The position numbers and the translations under genes are program-made. Below, piece by piece: positions 8,704 through 36,040 of a stretch of 64,000 nt of DNA. The stretch comes from Halorussus marinus (lineage in GTDB: Archaea > Halobacteriota > Halobacteria > Halobacteriales > Haladaptataceae), in contig NZ_SBIV01000009.1 in NCBI RefSeq assembly GCF_004765795.1, positions 1-64,000 on the forward strand. The letters are read 5' to 3'. The number at the start of each line of letters is the position of its first letter. The stretch's first letter is position 1. The notes under the pieces are model-generated. The model was not told the DNA's origin. It ran no database searches and saw nothing but the letters and a program-made list of their open reading frames with translations.

Positions 8704-10487
8704 GCGACCCGGTCAGCCCATCGTTCGACGCCGAAACCGAAGCCGAAGCCGAGTTAGAGCCAGAGCCCGGCGAGGACCCGTCGGCGACCGACGCCGAGCC
8801 GGGTCGGACCGGCGCCCACTCGGTCGTCGCGGCGCTCGAAAACGCCGGCGCGGAGGCCATGTTCGGCGTGCAGGGCGGTGCGATCATGCCCGTCTACGAC
8901 GCGCTGTACGACTCGGACCTGCGCCACGTCATGATGGCCCACGAGCAGGCCGCGGCTCACGCCGCCGACGCCTACGGCATCGTCTCGGGCACGCCGGGGG
9001 TCTGTCTGGCGACCTCCGGACCGGGCGCGACCAACCTCGTGACCGGGATCGCGGACGCCGACATGGACTCGGACCCGATGGTCGCGCTCACCGGGCAGGT
9101 GCCGACAGACTTCGTCGGCAACGACGCCTTCCAGGAGACCGACACCACCGGCGTCACCGCCCCGATCACGAAGACGAACTACTTCGCCGACCACGCCGAC
9201 ACGGTCGGCGACACCGTTGGGGAGGCGTTCGCCTACGCCGCCGCGGGGCGACCGGGCCCGACGCTGGTCGACCTCCCCAAGGACGTGACCCAAGACGAGA
9301 CCGCGGTCGAGCCCGGGGACGCGACCGTCCCGGACACCTACGACCCCCAGACTGAGGCCGACGACGAGGCGGTCGCCGAGGCGGCCCGACGGCTCGAACG
9401 CGCCGAAAAGCCCGTCGTCCTCGTCGGCGGCGGCGTCATCAAGGGCGACGCCACCGAGGAGTTGCGGGCGTTCGCCCGCGAGTACGAGATCCCGGTCGCG
9501 ACCTCGATGCCCGCGGTCGGCGCGTTCCCCGAGGACGACGACCTCTCGCTGGAGATGGTCGGGATGCACGGCACCGGCTACGCCAACATGGCGACGACCC
9601 ACTGCGACGTGATGCTCGCGGTCGGCACCCGGTTCGACGACCGGCTCACCGGCGGGGTCGACACGTTCGCGCCCGAGGCCGAGGTGCTCCACGTCGACAT
9701 CGACCCCGCGGAGATCTCCAAGAACGTCACGGCCGACGTGGCGCTGATCGGCGACGCCGCCACCGTCCTCGACCAACTCGACGCCGAGATGGAGCGGGCC
9801 CCTGACTGCCGAGAGTGGCGCTCGCAGTGCTGGACGTGGAAGAGCGAGTACCCGATGGACTACGCCACGCCCGACGACGAGCCCCTCAAGCCCCAGTTCG
9901 TCGTGGAGGCGTTCGACGAGGCGACCGGCGACGACACCATCGTCACCACCGGCGTCGGCCAACACCAGATGTGGGCGGTCCAGTACTGGACGTACACCGA
10001 ACCCCGGACGTGGGTCTCCTCTCACGGGCTCGGGACGATGGGCTACGGCCTGCCCGCGGCCATCGGCGCGAAGTTCGCCGCCGACGACGACCAGCAGGTC
10101 GTCTGCTTCGAGGGCGACGGCTCGTTTTTGATGACGATGCAGGAGCTGTCGGTCGCGGTCCGCGAGAACCTCGACATCACCGTCGCGGTGCTCAACAACG
10201 AGTACATCGGGATGGTCCGACAGTGGCAAGACGCCTTCTACGACGGCCGCCACTCGGCCTCGGAGTACAACTGGTGTCCCGAGTTCGAACCCCTCGCCGA
10301 GGCGTTCGGCGCGCAGGGCTTTACCGTCTCGGACTACGACGAGGTGGCCGACACCGTCGAGGCCGCGCTGGCCTACGACGGCCCGTCGGTCGTCGACGTC
10401 CGCATCGACCCCGCGGAGAACGTCTACCCGATGGTCCCGAGCGGCGGGGCAAACGGGAAGTTCGCCCTCTCGGAGGACCAGCTATGA
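8700..10487 (+). CDS. ilvB: Acetolactate synthase large subunit
   Basis: Thiamine-diphosphate enzyme of 595 aa that joins two pyruvates, or pyruvate and 2-oxobutyrate, in Val/Leu/Ile synthesis. A 40-residue acidic N-terminal extension precedes the core. The catalytic Glu is in MAHEQAAAHAADAYG. The TPP/Mg motif is visible as GDGSFLMTMQELSVAV...NNEYIGMVRQW near residue 480. FAD-domain motifs (LATSGPGATNL, TGQVP) are intact. GTG 8700 is fixed by the strong Shine-Dalgarno sequence. Its stop overlaps the ilvN ATG by 4 nt, so the two subunits are translationally coupled. Confidence 0.95.
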   Translation: MSDPVSPSFDAETEAEAELEPEPGEDPSATDAEPGRTGAHSVVAALENAGAEAMFGVQGGAIMPVYDALYDSDLRHVMMAHEQAAAHAADAYGIVSGTPGVCLATSGPGATNLVTGIADADMDSDPMVALTGQVPTDFVGNDAFQETDTTGVTAPITKTNYFADHADTVGDTVGEAFAYAAAGRPGPTLVDLPKDVTQDETAVEPGDATVPDTYDPQTEADDEAVAEAARRLERAEKPVVLVGGGVIKGDATEELRAFAREYEIPVATSMPAVGAFPEDDDLSLEMVGMHGTGYANMATTHCDVMLAVGTRFDDRLTGGVDTFAPEAEVLHVDIDPAEISKNVTADVALIGDAATVLDQLDAEMERAPDCREWRSQCWTWKSEYPMDYATPDDEPLKPQFVVEAFDEATGDDTIVTTGVGQHQMWAVQYWTYTEPRTWVSSHGLGTMGYGLPAAIGAKFAADDDQQVVCFEGDGSFLMTMQELSVAVRENLDITVAVLNNEYIGMVRQWQDAFYDGRHSASEYNWCPEFEPLAEAFGAQGFTVSDYDEVADTVEAALAYDGPSVVDVRIDPAENVYPMVPSGGANGKFALSEDQL

Positions 10488-28691: not shown

Positions 28692-31226
28692 TCAGTCGCT
28701 CGGCGTGCCACCGGGCGAATCGGCCTCGACGAGCGAACTCGCCCCGACGCGACGGGCCCAGATCAGCAGCATGCTCGGGAACACGAACACGCTCACGACG
28801 AACGACAGCGAGAGCCCGAGCACGACGAGCATCCCGAAGGCCCGGATCTGGGGACTGACGTGAAGCAGTAGCGTCCCGAACGCGCCCCCGGAGGTGAGCG
28901 TGCTCCCGAGCAGGGCGCCGCCCGTGCCGGTGACCGCGTTCCTGAGCGCGGCGACCGGCGCGTGGCCCCGATCGAGCTCCTGCGCGAAGCGGTCGCTGAC
29001 GTGGATGTTGTAGTCGACCCCGAGCCCGACGATCAGGCTCATCAGCAGGGCGGTCACGAACGTCACCGGCGTGCCAGACAGATACATCCCGCCGAGCACC
29101 AGCCCGATGACGAGTCCGATCGGGACGACCGTGAGCGCCCCGAGGGTCGCGCTCCCCTCGGTGAGCCGGTAGCTGATCGCGAGCACGATCCCGATGACCC
29201 CGAGCGCGAGCAACATCGTCCGGACGATGCCGTCGGCCATCTGGCCGAGTTCGGCGTTCGCGAACGTCGCCTGTCCGACCGGGGTCGCGGTCAGCGCCTC
29301 GCCGGCCTCGACGGTGGCCGCGATCCCGTGCATCGCCTCTGCGCGATCGTCGACCTCGAGGCCCTGCTCGACCGGCACGAGCACTCGGAGCGAACGGAAC
29401 TCCCCGCCGCGCCGTTCGAGCACCTGACTCGCGCGCTCGGGGGCGGCGTCGTACAGCGCGGCGTACACTGCCTCCACGTCTCGCTCGGGCACGCCGTCGC
29501 CGTCGGTGTCGGCCGCCCGGAGCGTCTCGGCGAACTCGCGGTCGGTCGCCGCGACCGACCGCATGACCGACAGCGGCGAGACCACCGCGGCGCCCCCGCC
29601 GCGTTCGAACACCGCGTCCCGACCGTTCGCGTCTTCGACCCCGGCGGCGACCCGGTCGAGCGCCGCGGGGTCGGTCACCTCGCCCTCGACCAGTATCATG
29701 GTCATCCGGCGATTCCGGTCGGCCGACTGGTAGGCGTCCTCGACGTACTGCTGATGGCGGTAGTACGGGTCGTCGGTGGCCTCCCACGCGAGAGGCCCCG
29801 GGAGCTCGGTCTTCCACTCGGCGACGTCGCTCGACGTCTGGTAGGCCTGCCGGTCGATGTCGGTCCACGCGACCGCGCCGCCGGCGCCCGCGACGACCGC
29901 GAGCACGATCACGACCGGCGCCGCCTTCCGGGCGGCCGCGACGCCGGCGCCCAACACCGGTCGCAGGTACCGGCCCTTACCGAGCGCGGGCTTGCGCCGG
30001 TCGAAGCCGACCCGTTCGAGGAGTCCGTCGACGCTCACCTTCAGCGCGGGCACGAGCGTCGTGAACACCACGAGCGCGGAGACGACCCCGAGCGTGATCC
30101 CGACCCCGAGCTGTCTGATGACCCCCATCGGGCTGGTGATGTTCGCGAGGAAGCCGACCCCCGCGGTCACCGTCACCAGCACGAACGCGACCCCCACCGA
30201 CGACAGCGCCCGACCCATCGGGCGTCGAACGCCCTCGTCGGCGCCGCGCTGTTCGCGGTAGCGCATGAAGACGTGCAGCCCGTAATCGATGCTCAGTCCC
30301 GTGATCAACACCGGGCCGATGATCGCGGTCATCCCGGCGGGGATCGACAGCCAGCCGAGGATTCCGAACATCCACAGGACCGACACCACCACGCCGACGA
30401 AGCCCACGACCACGTCCGCGAGGTCACGGTAGGCGAACCCGAGGACCGCGAGGATGAAAAGCAACGCCGCCGGGAGGATCAGCTCCGCGGTGTCGGCGTT
30501 CTGTTGGCGGTAGTAGGAGGCCGCGGCGTGATCGCCCGTGGTGAAGTAACCGGCTTCCGAGCGCTCCTGGGCGGCCTCGTACAGCGCCCGCTGAGCGTCG
30601 GCGGGCGGAGCCGGCGCCCGGTTTGTGGCGCCGTCGGCCGTCTCGAACTCGAAGACCATCCGGCGGCTCTCCGCGCTCGCGGTTCCGGGCTCGTAGCTGT
30701 CGGGCACGAGTTGGAGCGCCGCCGAGCCCTCGGCGAGCGAGTCGGCGACGAGCTGTCGGACCTCGCGGTCGCTCAGCCCGTCGAGCGCCCGGATCTGTGC
30801 GTCGAGCCCGGCACTCGGGTCGCCGGCCGCCCGCTTGCCGACGACGTTCGAGACGCCGAGGACGCCGTCGCCGGCGAGCGCGCCCGCGACCGACTCGTTG
30901 TCCCGCACCGCCCGCTGGTAGCGCAACGATGCGACCAGCGAGTCCTTCGAGAGGACGTTGCCGCCGTCGGTCCGGACGTAGACCGAGGACCTCGTGGTGT
31001 TTGCGGTCCGGTTCTCCTCGCCGCCGTAGTGGCGGCTCATGTAGTCGGCTTTCTGTGCGACCTGCGTGTCGCCGAACGCGTCGCTGTCGGTCTGGGCCGA
31101 CCCCTGCATCTGGAGCTGGGTGATCCCGCCCGCGACGCCGGCGGTCAACAGCAACATCACGACGAGGACCGCGCGGTTGCGGTCGGTCACGACGTCGACG
31201 AGTCGATTCAGCGTGTCTCGTATCAT
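28692..31226 (-). CDS. RND-superfamily (MMPL-type) exporter
   Basis: Protein of 844 aa with two repeats of one membrane helix, a large external domain and five helices. Helix 1 (AVLVVMLLLTAGVAGGI) is near residue 20. The first cluster of helices (about 255-400) has GPVLITGLSIDYGLHVFMRYREQRG; the second (about 660-830) has MSLIVGLGVDYNIHVSDRF. The paired GLSIDYGLH and GLGVDYNIH motifs supply the proton-relay Asp residues. It probably exports lipids or hydrophobic compounds using the proton gradient. It is divergent from a SIMPL lipoprotein gene, 174 nt apart. Confidence 0.9.
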   Translation of the reverse strand: MIRDTLNRLVDVVTDRNRAVLVVMLLLTAGVAGGITQLQMQGSAQTDSDAFGDTQVAQKADYMSRHYGGEENRTANTTRSSVYVRTDGGNVLSKDSLVASLRYQRAVRDNESVAGALAGDGVLGVSNVVGKRAAGDPSAGLDAQIRALDGLSDREVRQLVADSLAEGSAALQLVPDSYEPGTASAESRRMVFEFETADGATNRAPAPPADAQRALYEAAQERSEAGYFTTGDHAAASYYRQQNADTAELILPAALLFILAVLGFAYRDLADVVVGFVGVVVSVLWMFGILGWLSIPAGMTAIIGPVLITGLSIDYGLHVFMRYREQRGADEGVRRPMGRALSSVGVAFVLVTVTAGVGFLANITSPMGVIRQLGVGITLGVVSALVVFTTLVPALKVSVDGLLERVGFDRRKPALGKGRYLRPVLGAGVAAARKAAPVVIVLAVVAGAGGAVAWTDIDRQAYQTSSDVAEWKTELPGPLAWEATDDPYYRHQQYVEDAYQSADRNRRMTMILVEGEVTDPAALDRVAAGVEDANGRDAVFERGGGAAVVSPLSVMRSVAATDREFAETLRAADTDGDGVPERDVEAVYAALYDAAPERASQVLERRGGEFRSLRVLVPVEQGLEVDDRAEAMHGIAATVEAGEALTATPVGQATFANAELGQMADGIVRTMLLALGVIGIVLAISYRLTEGSATLGALTVVPIGLVIGLVLGGMYLSGTPVTFVTALLMSLIVGLGVDYNIHVSDRFAQELDRGHAPVAALRNAVTGTGGALLGSTLTSGGAFGTLLLHVSPQIRAFGMLVVLGLSLSFVVSVFVFPSMLLIWARRVGASSLVEADSPGGTPSD

Positions 31227-31400: not shown

Positions 31401-32171
31401 ATGTCGACGAAACGAACCGTCATCTCGGTTTTCGCGGCCGTCCTCCTGACCGCGGGCTGTCTCGGCGCCGCCGCCCCGCTCGGCGGTGCGGACTCGCCCG
31501 CCCCGAACTCGACCGCCCCGCCGACCAATCAGACCGGCGCCGACGCCACGGTCAGGGTCGGCGCGTCCGGCGAAGCGACCGCCGATCCCGACCGCGCGGT
31601 CGCGGCCGTCGGCGTCGAAGCGACCGCGGCCGACGCCGAGACCGCCCGCCAGCGGGTCGCCGAGAACGTCTCGACGCTCCGGGACGCGCTCGCGGCCGCC
31701 GGGATCGAAGACGATCAGGTGACGACCCGCCACTACGCGATCCGACAGGTCCACGAGTCGGAGCGCTCGGAGTCGACGCCCACGCGCTACGAGGCCGTCC
31801 ACTCGTTCGAAGTGCGCATCTCGGACGTCGACGCGGTCGGGTCGGTCATCGAGACGGCGGTCGACAACGGCGCGACGAACGTCGGTCGCGTCGAGTTCAC
31901 CCTCTCCGAGGAGACCCGCACCGACCTCCGCGAGGAGGCGCTGGCCGCCGCGATGGACAGCGCTCGGGGCGACGCCGAGACCCTCGCGTCGAACGCGAAT
32001 CTCAGCCTCGCCGGCGTCACGTCGGTCTCGACATCCGACGTGCGCGTCCAGCCCTACCGCGCGGAGGCCGAGATGGCCGCCGACGGCGCGGCGACGAGCA
32101 TCGAGTCGGGCCCCGTCTCGGTCCACGCGCAGGTGCAGGTCGCCTACGCGGCGACCGAAGCGTCCGAGTGA
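31401..32171 (+). CDS. SIMPL-domain lipoprotein
   Basis: Protein of 256 aa. A signal peptide ends at LLTAGC (Cys near residue 20), followed by a Ser/Pro/Thr linker. The SIMPL (DUF541) domain begins at TVRVGASGEATADPDRAVAAVGVEA and includes DNGATNVGRVEFTLSEETRTDLREEAL. Such exported domains are oligomeric and of unknown role. The long open frame upstream on this strand is antisense to the RND gene and was not included. Start ATG 31401 directly precedes the hydrophobic signal. Confidence 0.85.
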   Translation: MSTKRTVISVFAAVLLTAGCLGAAAPLGGADSPAPNSTAPPTNQTGADATVRVGASGEATADPDRAVAAVGVEATAADAETARQRVAENVSTLRDALAAAGIEDDQVTTRHYAIRQVHESERSESTPTRYEAVHSFEVRISDVDAVGSVIETAVDNGATNVGRVEFTLSEETRTDLREEALAAAMDSARGDAETLASNANLSLAGVTSVSTSDVRVQPYRAEAEMAADGAATSIESGPVSVHAQVQVAYAATEASE

Positions 32172-32192: not shown

Positions 32193-33896
32193 CTACCGGT
32201 CGACCGACCCGAGCACGATGTCGAGACTCCCCAGCGACGCCACCAGATCGGGGACGTACTCGCCCTCCGACATCGCCTCCAGCGCGTGGAGGTTGTTGAA
32301 ACACGGGCTTCGGATCTTGAACCGGGCGGGCTGGGAGGTGCCGTCCGACCGGATGTAGATGCCCATCTCGCCCTTCGCGGCCTCGACCGCCCGGTAGATC
32401 TCGGTGTCGGGGTCGGGCTTGATCGTCCGGGGGACGTTCGACTGGATCGTCCGCTCGTCCTCGGGCCAGTCTTCGAGCAGGTCGAGACACTGCCGGATGA
32501 TCTTCGCGGACTCCTCGACCTCCTGTAGTCGGACCAGCACGCGGGCGTAGTTGTCGCCGTGGGGCTCGGTCACGACGTTCCAGTCGAGCTCGTCGTAGTA
32601 GCCGTAGGGGTCGTCTCGCCGGAGGTCGTAGTCGACGCCCGATCCGCGGGCGACCGGCCCGGTACAGCCGTAGGCCTTGGCGGTCTCGGCGTCGATGACG
32701 CCGGTGTCGACCGTCCGCTTCTGGAAGATCTCGTTTCGAGTCATCATGTCGTGGTACTCCTCGACGTGCTCGGGCAGTTCGTCGAGGAAGTCCCGGACCT
32801 TGGCGAACCACTCCTCGCGTGGCTCGGGGATGTCCCAGACGACCCCGCCGAGCCGGAAGTAGTTGAACATCATCCGCTGGCCCGTGAGGTCTTCGAGGAT
32901 GTTCTGGACGATCTCCCGGTCCCGGATCGCGTACATGAAGATGGCGGTGAAGTCGCCGTACACGTCGAGCGCGAACGTCCCGGCCGCGATCATGTGGCCC
33001 ATGATGCGACCGAACTCCACCGCCATGGTCCGGAGGACTTGGGCGTACTCCGGGACGTCGATGTCCGCGAGGTCCTCCGCGACGCGCGCGTAGGCCCACT
33101 CGTTCGGGATGTTCGCGGTGTAGTCCCACCGGTCGGGGTAGGGCATGATCTGGTACCGGTAGTTTTTGGTCTGACACATCTGCTCTTCACACCGGTGGAG
33201 GTAACCGATGTCTGGGTCGACGTCGGCGACCTGCTCGCCGTCCAGCACCGTCTTGAGGTGGAGCACGCCGTGGGTCGCCGGGTGGTGGGGCCCGATGTTG
33301 AGAAACATCGTGTCGGAGTCCGACGACCCGTCCGATTCCTCGCCCGAGGCGGTCTCGCGCTTGGTTTCGGCGAGGGGGTTGACGTGCTCTTTCAGCGTCA
33401 CCACCTGCGGCCGGTCCTGATCGTAGTCTTTGCTTAAGGGGTGGCCCTGCCACGTCTCGGGCAGGAGGATGCGCCGGAGATCGGGGTGGCCCTCGTACTC
33501 GATACCGACGAGGTCGTAGGCCTCTCGCTCGTGCCACTCGGCGGTCTTGTACACGCCCGAAGCCGATCGGTGGACCGGGCGCTCGCGACCCACCGGGACG
33601 ACGACGTTGACCTCCTGAGTGGGATCGTCGTACTTCCGGAGGTGATAGATGCTCTCGTAGCGGTCTTCGTACTCTTGAGCCGTGAGACACGAGAGGTGGT
33701 CGAACCCCGCCTCTCGCTTGAGCGCCCCCAGAACGCTCTCGACGTCGTCGGGTCGGATCACGAACGACTCGGCGTTGAGGTGGGTCTCACGCCTCACCAC
33801 CCGGTCGCCGAGCATCGCCTCGATGGCGTCGCAGTCGACGCGTTCGAGTCTCGGTACCTCCGCCGCGCCGGAGTCGGTCTCTGATGGGTCACTCAT
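32193..33896 (-). CDS. nuoCD: NADH-quinone-oxidoreductase-like subunit CD fusion (lone gene)
   Basis: Protein of 567 aa. Residues 1-170 match NuoC (YHLRKYDDPTQEVNVVV, TAEWHEREAYDLVGIEYEGHPDLRRIL). From about residue 197 it is NuoD: FLNIGPHHPATHGVLHL, DIGYLHRCEEQ, GCTGPVARGSG. It is a peripheral subunit near the quinone site of complex I. The known haloarchaeal arrangement is a nuoA-B-CD-H-I-J-K-L-M-N cluster. Here no other nuo gene is adjacent on either side, so it is a duplicate or a displaced gene. Confidence 0.92.
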   Translation of the reverse strand: MSDPSETDSGAAEVPRLERVDCDAIEAMLGDRVVRRETHLNAESFVIRPDDVESVLGALKREAGFDHLSCLTAQEYEDRYESIYHLRKYDDPTQEVNVVVPVGRERPVHRSASGVYKTAEWHEREAYDLVGIEYEGHPDLRRILLPETWQGHPLSKDYDQDRPQVVTLKEHVNPLAETKRETASGEESDGSSDSDTMFLNIGPHHPATHGVLHLKTVLDGEQVADVDPDIGYLHRCEEQMCQTKNYRYQIMPYPDRWDYTANIPNEWAYARVAEDLADIDVPEYAQVLRTMAVEFGRIMGHMIAAGTFALDVYGDFTAIFMYAIRDREIVQNILEDLTGQRMMFNYFRLGGVVWDIPEPREEWFAKVRDFLDELPEHVEEYHDMMTRNEIFQKRTVDTGVIDAETAKAYGCTGPVARGSGVDYDLRRDDPYGYYDELDWNVVTEPHGDNYARVLVRLQEVEESAKIIRQCLDLLEDWPEDERTIQSNVPRTIKPDPDTEIYRAVEAAKGEMGIYIRSDGTSQPARFKIRSPCFNNLHALEAMSEGEYVPDLVASLGSLDIVLGSVDR

Positions 33897-34053: not shown

Positions 34054-34827
34054 TCAGTACTGCGGTTGCTCGCGACGCTCGTCGCGTCGCCCGCCGCTCT
34101 GAGGTCCCTCCCGGTGGCGCTTTGACTCCCCGCCGTGGCGCTCGCCGGCTTGGTGGCCCTCGCTACGCATCGCGGTCTGCTGGACCGGGCTCAAACTGCC
34201 CTCGGAGCGCCCGCCGTACTGATTCTGCTCGCCGCGGCTCTGTTGGCCGTGCTGAGGCTGTTGACCGTGCTGGCCCTGCTGACTCTGTCGCTCGTGCTGG
34301 GGCTGTTGACCGTGCTGGCCGTGGACGGACTGGCCACGTTCGCCGTGCTGGCCCCTTTGGCCGCCCTGTCGCCCGGTCTGTTGGTGCTCGCCCCGCCGGC
34401 CGGACTGCTGGCCACGCCGTCGGCCGTACCGCCGGCTCCGACCGCCGCCCTGCTGGTGCTGACCTGCCTCGCGGTGCTGGCCGCCCTGCTCGCCCACCTG
34501 CTGGCGGCCGTGTTCGTCGATGTCTCGCCGGCCGCGCTGGTGCTGGCCGGGGTGATGGCCGCCCTGCTGGCCGTGCTGGGACTGTCGCGACTGCTGGCCG
34601 CGCTGGGATTGGTGGTGCTCACCGCGCTGGGACTGCTGGCGGCGACCGCCCTGCTGTTCGTGACCGCGCTGGCGTCGTCCCCGTCCGGTCGACTCGCTTC
34701 GTCGGCTCTCCGTGCTTCGTTTTCGGCCGCCGCCGGAGTACCGGCCACCCTCGTTCTGTCGGTTCCCCCGGTCGCGACGGTTCTGTTCGCCGGTCGTTCC
34801 CCGCTGATTCTGATTCTGTCGTGCCAT
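34054..34827 (-). CDS. Basic Gln/Gly/Arg/His-rich low-complexity protein
   Basis: Unrecognised protein of 257 aa. By my count about 57 Gln, 54 Gly, 47 Arg and 20 His make up some 69 percent; acidic residues are about 24, Cys, Trp and Phe are absent. Short repeats are visible (GQHGQQPQH twice, many QQGG and RGQ units). The last 55 residues (SLSPVQQTAMRSEGHQAGERHGGESKRHRE) are less repetitive. The frame uses G/C-ending codons, and GGAGGT stands 7 nt before ATG 34827, so it is a real gene on this strand. Strong positive charge is odd for a haloarchaeon. RNA binding, condensate formation or desiccation stress are possibilities only. Confidence 0.75.
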   Translation of the reverse strand: MARQNQNQRGTTGEQNRRDRGNRQNEGGRYSGGGRKRSTESRRSESTGRGRRQRGHEQQGGRRQQSQRGEHHQSQRGQQSRQSQHGQQGGHHPGQHQRGRRDIDEHGRQQVGEQGGQHREAGQHQQGGGRSRRYGRRRGQQSGRRGEHQQTGRQGGQRGQHGERGQSVHGQHGQQPQHERQSQQGQHGQQPQHGQQSRGEQNQYGGRSEGSLSPVQQTAMRSEGHQAGERHGGESKRHREGPQSGGRRDERREQPQY

Positions 34828-34932
34828 CGTTCGGACCTCCGTCGGGAGGGTCGCCACGATTTTGCTTATGTGTAGTGGGCGGAGGCTGACAACACGCGCC
34901 ACGGGCGTCGGGTCCCGACCGTCGCAGGTGGG

Positions 34933-34966: not shown

Positions 34967-36040
34967 ATGGAACCACGGGATCTCTCTTCGCACACCGTGT
35001 ATCAGGCCGGACGGGGCGTCGAGGAGGTGGCCCGCGAACTCGGGCTCGACCCCGACGACCTGGTGAAACTCGCGTCGAACGAGAACCCCTTCGGCCCGAG
35101 CCCGGCCGCCGTGGAGGCGATCAAGGCGGCGGCCGAGTCGGCCAACTCCTACCCGAAGGCCTCCCACGCCGACCTGACCGAGAAGCTCGCCGACGAGTGG
35201 GGCGTCGCTCCGAGCCAGATCTGGCTCGGCAACGGCGGCGACGGGGTGCTCGATTACCTCGCGCGCGCGGCGCTCGACCCCGGCGACAGAGTGCTGGTCC
35301 CCGAGCCCGGGTTCGCCTACTACGCGATGAGCGCGCGCTTTCACCACGGCGAAGTCGCCGAGTACCGCCTCTCGAAGGCCGACGACTTCGCGCTCGACGC
35401 CGAGACGGTCCTCGGCGACTACGACGGCGAGCGCGTCGTCTACCTCACCAGCCCGCACAACCCCACAGGCGGGCGATTCTCGCTCGACGCCGTCGCGACC
35501 ATCGCCGACGAGACCGACGAGGAGACGCTCGTGCTCGTCGACGAAGCTTACGGCGAGTTCGCCGACGGGCCGAGCGCGGTCGAACTCGTCGACGAACGCG
35601 ACGACGTGGCGGTCCTCCGGACGTTCTCGAAGGTGTACGGGCTCGCCGGCGTCCGACTCGGGTACGGCGTCGTCCCCGAGGAGTGGGCCGACGCCTACGC
35701 CCGAGTGAACACGCCGTTCGCCGCCAGCGAGATCGCGTGTCGGGCGGGCCTCGCGGCGCTCGACGACGGCGCCCACGCCGAGAAGACCGTCGAGACCGCG
35801 GCGTGGGCCCGAGAGTACATGTCCGAGACGCTCGACGCGCCGACGTGGGAGAGCCACGGCAACTTCGTGCTCGCGGAGGTCGGGGACGCCGAGGCGGTCG
35901 CCGACGAACTCCAGCGTCGAGGCGTCATCGTCCGCGATTGCAGTAGCTTCGGGCTCCCCGAGTGCGTCCGGATCACCTGCGGCACGAAAGCCGAGACGCG
36001 GCGGGCGGTCGCCGAGTGCAACGAGGTGCTCGCGGAGTGA
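34967..36040 (+). CDS. hisC: Histidinol-phosphate aminotransferase
   Basis: Class I/II PLP aminotransferase of 357 aa. KLASNENPFGPSP near residue 28, SPHNPTGG near 160, VDEAYGEF and the PLP-binding Lys in RTFSKVYGLAGVRLGYG are the HisC motifs. It makes L-histidinol phosphate from imidazole acetol phosphate. It is the first gene of a three-gene overlapping set with a nucleotide-kinase-like gene (GTGA overlap) and a CDP-alcohol transferase; other his genes are not in the window. Confidence 0.93.
   Translation: MEPRDLSSHTVYQAGRGVEEVARELGLDPDDLVKLASNENPFGPSPAAVEAIKAAAESANSYPKASHADLTEKLADEWGVAPSQIWLGNGGDGVLDYLARAALDPGDRVLVPEPGFAYYAMSARFHHGEVAEYRLSKADDFALDAETVLGDYDGERVVYLTSPHNPTGGRFSLDAVATIADETDEETLVLVDEAYGEFADGPSAVELVDERDDVAVLRTFSKVYGLAGVRLGYGVVPEEWADAYARVNTPFAASEIACRAGLAALDDGAHAEKTVETAAWAREYMSETLDAPTWESHGNFVLAEVGDAEAVADELQRRGVIVRDCSSFGLPECVRITCGTKAETRRAVAECNEVLAE

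Follow-up and report, generated by a model that had tools for sequence, protein, structure and literature searches.

A basic, predicted-disordered Gln/Gly/Arg/His-rich protein encoded divergently from hisC in Halorussus and its relatives

Acidic proteomes are a textbook hallmark of salt-in archaea, which raises the question of whether a strongly basic, low-complexity reading frame in Halorussus marinus is a gene at all and, if so, what kind of protein it encodes. The frame lies at 34054..34827 on the minus strand of a 64,000-nucleotide stretch of DNA (positions 1 to 64,000 of contig NZ_SBIV01000009.1, hereafter the window), and its translation comprises 257 residues and a stop codon. A preliminary description had put the joint share of Gln, Gly, Arg and His at about 69% and the basic residues at about twice the acidic ones; recomputed counts (Q57, G54, R47 and H20, or 69.3%; 49 K+R vs 24 D+E) confirm both. 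The pI of 11.8, against a median of 4.4 for 45 roughly called window genes that is merely indicative because the gene call favoured acidic ORFs, agrees with its portrayal as an unusual basic low-complexity gene. Gln averages 2.2% in those genes and peaks at 7.2%, and the K:R ratio is ~0.04 in the window protein vs 0.28 in the window genes. Codon use and a GGAGGT sequence, both previously cited as expression signals, hold up as well: codon choice in the ORF and in the other window genes is near-identical for Gln (CAG, 0.86 and 0.86), His (CAC, 0.95 and 0.95) and Glu (GAG, 0.80 and 0.81), and the Shine-Dalgarno GGAGGT (34835..34840, minus strand) stands 7 nt 5' of the ATG, with G-rich equivalents in the orthologues. 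Orthologue N-termini of the form M(A/S/T)xxN support the ATG at 34827, rather than the in-frame GTG at 34995, as the start codon.

The composition is not generic to GC-rich reading frames. Among 2,849 mechanically defined ORFs with a minimum length of 150 aa, drawn from 1.38 Mb (the window plus 80 haloarchaeal loci, so that the statistics describe loci rather than whole genomes), at least 18% Gln together with at least 12% Gly occurs in five, the window ORF and four Halorussus orthologues. A spurious ORF or slippage product of CAG/GGC-rich DNA, with the true function on the opposite strand or in RNA, might still be suspected, as the opposite strand likewise has a long open frame and repeat number changes fast. 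However, mean pairwise variation at codon positions 1/2/3 is 0.07/0.05/0.27 in the C-terminal block, 0.09/0.02/0.42 in the RYSxGGR block and 0/0/0.25 in the QRHEVGQN block, and this third-position bias argues for purifying selection on the protein in the minus-strand frame. The hydrophobic opposite-strand ORF (34135-34875, plus strand) is therefore dismissed as a mirror artefact of a frame with free third and constrained first and second positions. The conserved start, Shine-Dalgarno sequence and promoter, the presence of the gene in 28/28 genomes and the lack of any ORF of similar composition outside the family also speak against a spurious ORF, which we regard as extremely improbable and which the codon-position pattern refutes. 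On this sequence evidence, ORF 34054-34827(-) is a real, conserved and uncharacterised gene.

Plain BLAST with the whole protein gave no significant or convincing match in relatives, as expected for a low-complexity sequence, and orthologues were recovered by synteny and by a profile spanning 32 positions of the C-terminal core (profile A1). A Q/R-rich counterpart divergent from hisC is found in all 28 family genomes (18 Halorussus, nine Haladaptatus and one Halomicrococcus-like genome, G018), among them G011, which is fragmentary, and G017, which lacks the core; in G023 the copy has a frameshift, and nuoCD in that draft genome is split too. hisC, at 34967..36040 on the plus strand of the window, is thus the constant landmark of the gene in Halorussus, Haladaptatus and G018. 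Downstream lies a nuoCD paralogue (32193..33896, minus strand; Pfam PF00346 and PF00329), and in 13 Halorussus congeners a Q/G/H/R-rich ORF is always present upstream of nuoCD. A functional link to nuoCD is nevertheless rejected because hisC always adjoins the gene and nuoCD does not: nuoCD was undetected beside it in G001 and G015, where the core is present and the gene is divergent from hisC, and in G018 and the examined Haladaptatus loci, making nuoCD a neighbour in most Halorussus only and not ancestral to the locus. The window nuoCD is a second copy outside a nuo operon, 77% identical to the other copy (G000:C1:51803-53422), and many haloarchaeal genomes searched have two nuoCD matches. 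Further along, an MMPL/RND-like transporter gene (28692-31226, minus strand) adjoins one for a probable lipoprotein (~31415-32171, plus strand), which may be of the SIMPL/DUF541 type. Relatives of the window protein were not found on plasmids or viral contigs, nor was any literature on such a protein in Halorussus among open-access papers.

The gene also has a conserved promoter block, TGTCAG followed by CTCCGCCCACTACACATAAG (34863..34891, minus strand), whose TATA-like ATAAG end lies ~35-40 nt from the ATG. In an alignment of 14 spacers to the hisC gene, the block, TGTCAGNATCCGCCCAGTACACATAAGGA, is conserved in 14 Halorussus at ~35-65 nt 5' of the start codon. A genus-wide scan allowing up to three mismatches located it at this gene in 16/18 Halorussus genomes and at three sites elsewhere, each with three mismatches, two of them upstream of a His-rich paralogue present in G004 and G014. 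The block is nearly private to the Q/G/R/H gene, at about one per Halorussus genome. The paralogue (L281:1556-2092 and L282:1556-2230, reverse complement of locus) starts with MARNTxSRWGG and contains RQYGGGD and a poly-His tract, which comprises 12 His in L281.

Family members range from 119 to 429 aa, and their repeat body, in which short repeats (e.g. GQHQQ[ST]) drift, evolves freely. The N-terminal motif RYSGGGR (34723..34743, minus strand) recurs as RYSxGGR across 14 aligned Halorussus orthologues. The C-terminal core, EQNQYGGRSEGSLSPVQQTAMRSEG... (34135..34230, minus strand), is the most conserved segment, the one captured by profile A1 and by codon-position variation, and reads NQYGG-SSESGF-SPVQQTMMRG in most members. 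The preliminary description had named C-terminal conservation among close relatives as a test of the gene, and such conservation is found; the core is not strictly required, since it is missing in G017, G019, G021 and G025. The G017 orthologue (L283:571-1356, reverse complement of locus), which lacks it, is 43% glutamine. What stays constant across the family is hydrophilicity (GRAVY between -2.0 and -2.8, the window protein being at -2.38), few hydrophobic residues (AVILMFWC 3-11%), Arg replacing a near-excluded Lys, and Tyr placed in [RQ]YG. In the 27 proteins pooled, RYG, which occurs in the window protein at residues 133-135 (34423..34431, minus strand), was observed 55 times vs 4.1 in composition-preserving shuffles (13-fold) and QYG 25 times vs 7.3, whereas RGG (41 vs 36.2) and GRG (38 vs 36.0) are at expectation; given the non-independence of related sequences, the figures characterise the family and should not be read as probabilities. 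The "RGG-like" label of the preliminary description is therefore wrong, RYG being enriched instead. The basicity that it stressed stands in so far as all 27 intact members, the window protein included, have a pI of 9.3-11.9, but its strength is not a conserved trait, as net charge runs from ~+2 to ~+37. Taken as a whole, the earlier interpretation is partly supported.

AlphaFold2, run with 14 orthologues, returned a mean pLDDT of 41.9 and a pTM of 0.14, with residues 214-217, inside the core, as the sole secondary structure (a helix); because the alignment is shallow, this is evidence, not proof, that the protein is intrinsically disordered. Neither the window protein nor the scanned relatives matched any Pfam-A family (KGG, LEA_5 and gamma-type SASP included) at E values up to 10, and NCBIfam gave none for the window protein. 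Several known kinds of disordered protein nevertheless invite comparison. Hydrophilins and LEA-like desiccation proteins are defined by composition, with high glycine, extreme hydrophilicity and disorder (PMC4190154), and the window protein resembles them in its 21% Gly, its GRAVY and its predicted disorder. It differs in that the basic family is rich in Gln, Arg and His and has no LEA Pfam match. The KGG proteins YciG and YmdF of E. coli and Salmonella are short-motif, glycine-rich, disordered stress proteins under RpoS control (PMC7161692), but the basic family has neither the KGG motif nor the Pfam match, and its f1 locus lacks a catalase neighbour. FET-type low-complexity domains (FUS, EWSR1) likewise combine a Q/G/S-rich spacer with candidate stickers, Tyr and Arg; in contrast, the basic family has few Tyr, RYG rather than SYGQ, unenriched RGG, and no RRM or zinc finger. 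Q/N-rich prion-like domains are marked by few charged residues, and the window protein has 22% Q, 2% N and 18% R. The family is a new one of a known general kind, the disordered, hydrophilic, low-complexity protein.

A likeness in motif comes from small acidic proteins of other haloarchaeal families, which share the core with the basic family and differ in size, pI and genomic place. Outside Halorussus, profile A1 retrieved the proteins of G018 and of the Haladaptatus-type genomes, followed by two small acidic proteins of family f5 (E 1.9e-4 and 0.005 per genome), one of which reads MSDDDHGDENHGDKEEVQGEYGGEKDTQYDEDDQNQYGGDDDDVSAVEQTEMRM... A profile of the acidic cores (A3) finds further acidic members in families f4 and f7, e.g. 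DVNQYGGGDQDIDAVEQTERRED, and also recovers the window protein (E 0.0019), along with G015 and two genomes of Haladaptatus type. Profile-profile comparison of the basic and acidic cores (hhalign) gave a probability of 95%, and the top match of a reversed-profile control had E 1.3, in a pooled ORF set partly gathered with the profile itself. The common core is NQYGG-x(4-6)-x-x-V-[EQ]-Q-T-x-x-R, with NQYGG-DVDAVEQT-R as the acidic form. The acidic relatives are 60-105 aa long, contain up to 46% D/E, have a pI of ~4.1 and lie in different genomic places with no Pfam match; those of L225-L229 and L235-L238 (~60-105 aa) carry QYGGGxxDVDAVEQT, several with an EW(V/L)ExE...PDD end. Homology of the acidic and basic core proteins is probable but not proven, since the core is short and further acidic members get low scores from the basic profile. 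The flanks around the core may have switched charge. We give roughly an even chance to a single haloarchaeal disordered family with two opposite charge states around a core of ~20 residues, NQYGG...V[QE]QT..R: very small acidic members in several families, and long basic Q/G/R/H members in Halorussus-Haladaptatus, the flanks of the latter having been charge-inverted and lengthened several-fold with the core retained, against the salt-in acidic bias. A DNA pattern for PV[EQ]QT[MATV]M matched in 14/195 genomes; in 13 the match falls in the basic protein, and in the other, G111, it lies in an ORF adjoining an acidic core protein; the same neighbour ORF, with SPVEQTMM, occurs in G244. Small acidic ORFs with an SPVEQTMM motif lie immediately upstream of the acidic NQYGG-VEQT protein (L174:7720-8037 and L223:1065-1346, both plus strand). 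At another locus, a DUF2243 membrane protein (L173:8712-9281, plus strand) begins 1 nt after the acidic core protein and is followed by a convergent Mn-catalase gene (9570-10436, minus strand; Pfam). Within one family, members of two genera have Mn-catalase or DUF2243 genes next to acidic relatives, an arrangement that recalls the yciGFE-katN operon of the KGG proteins and that we treat as a lead only; the Mn-catalase loci of inspected Halorussus genomes contain no NQYGG gene.

For the basic protein, we tentatively favour, at slightly less than an even chance, a hydrophilin-like, sticker-and-spacer disordered protein that would act in the high-KCl cytoplasm as a protectant or as a scaffold for condensates. 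Gln, Gly, His and Ser would form a solvated spacer free to vary in length, the arginines and the recurrent Arg-Tyr-Gly would serve as weak multivalent stickers, and the C-terminal core NQYGG...SPVQQT.MR could serve as a short docking site, either for a partner or for the protein itself; as water activity falls, macromolecules, possibly RNA, would be kept dispersed or reversibly condensed. Supporting this reading are a real gene, purifying selection on its motifs, predicted disorder, hydrophilin-like composition, RYG enrichment and the near-private promoter block; the enriched RYG motifs in a chain predicted to be disordered match the multivalent sticker motifs that a phase-separating sticker-and-spacer protein would call for. 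Counting against the reading, tyrosine is sparse (4/257 in the window protein), which would make cation-pi cross-linking weak unless a partner contributed; the core is absent from G017, G019, G021 and G025; and the f1 locus neighbours, hisC, adk and, in most Halorussus, nuoCD, offer no tie to stress genes.

A narrower role, in which Arg-rich disorder would contact RNA or ribosomes directly, in line with the RNA binding that the preliminary description suggested for an RGG-like protein, fits the Arg content of 8-29%, the near-exclusion of lysine and a pI above 9 in 27/27 intact members. We consider it unlikely: RGG and GRG are unenriched, Pfam and NCBIfam reveal no RNA-binding domain in a protein with a mean pLDDT of ~42, some orthologues carry a net charge of merely +2 or +3, and electrostatic binding is screened at molar KCl. 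The strong conservation of the core, with its codon-level constraint, and the similar core in small acidic proteins of other families would suit an adaptor whose linear motif docks a specific partner while the low-complexity body is a solubilising linker only; yet several f1 members have lost the core or retain it in degenerate form while keeping the Q/R-rich body, which makes such an adaptor rather improbable. That histidine stretches buffer Ni, Co, Cu or Zn is very doubtful, since a number of members contain no more than 2-4% His and conservation does not extend to the poly-His tracts, even though His reaches 11% (range 2-11%), three orthologues have 9-His tracts and the paralogue with the same promoter block has one of 12.

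The family is unusual in being basic in a salt-in archaeon and in having possible charge-inverted relatives. Basic, predicted to be disordered, almost free of lysine and found throughout its lineage behind a conserved promoter block of its own, the protein is a structured exception to the acidic-proteome rule. Molar KCl screens charge and should leave Arg-Tyr and glutamine contacts dominant, and the protein may offer a natural system for studying disordered-protein self-association or cell protection under those conditions. Should the homology with the acidic relatives be genuine, the two forms would provide a matched pair for the effect of net charge on a disordered protein.
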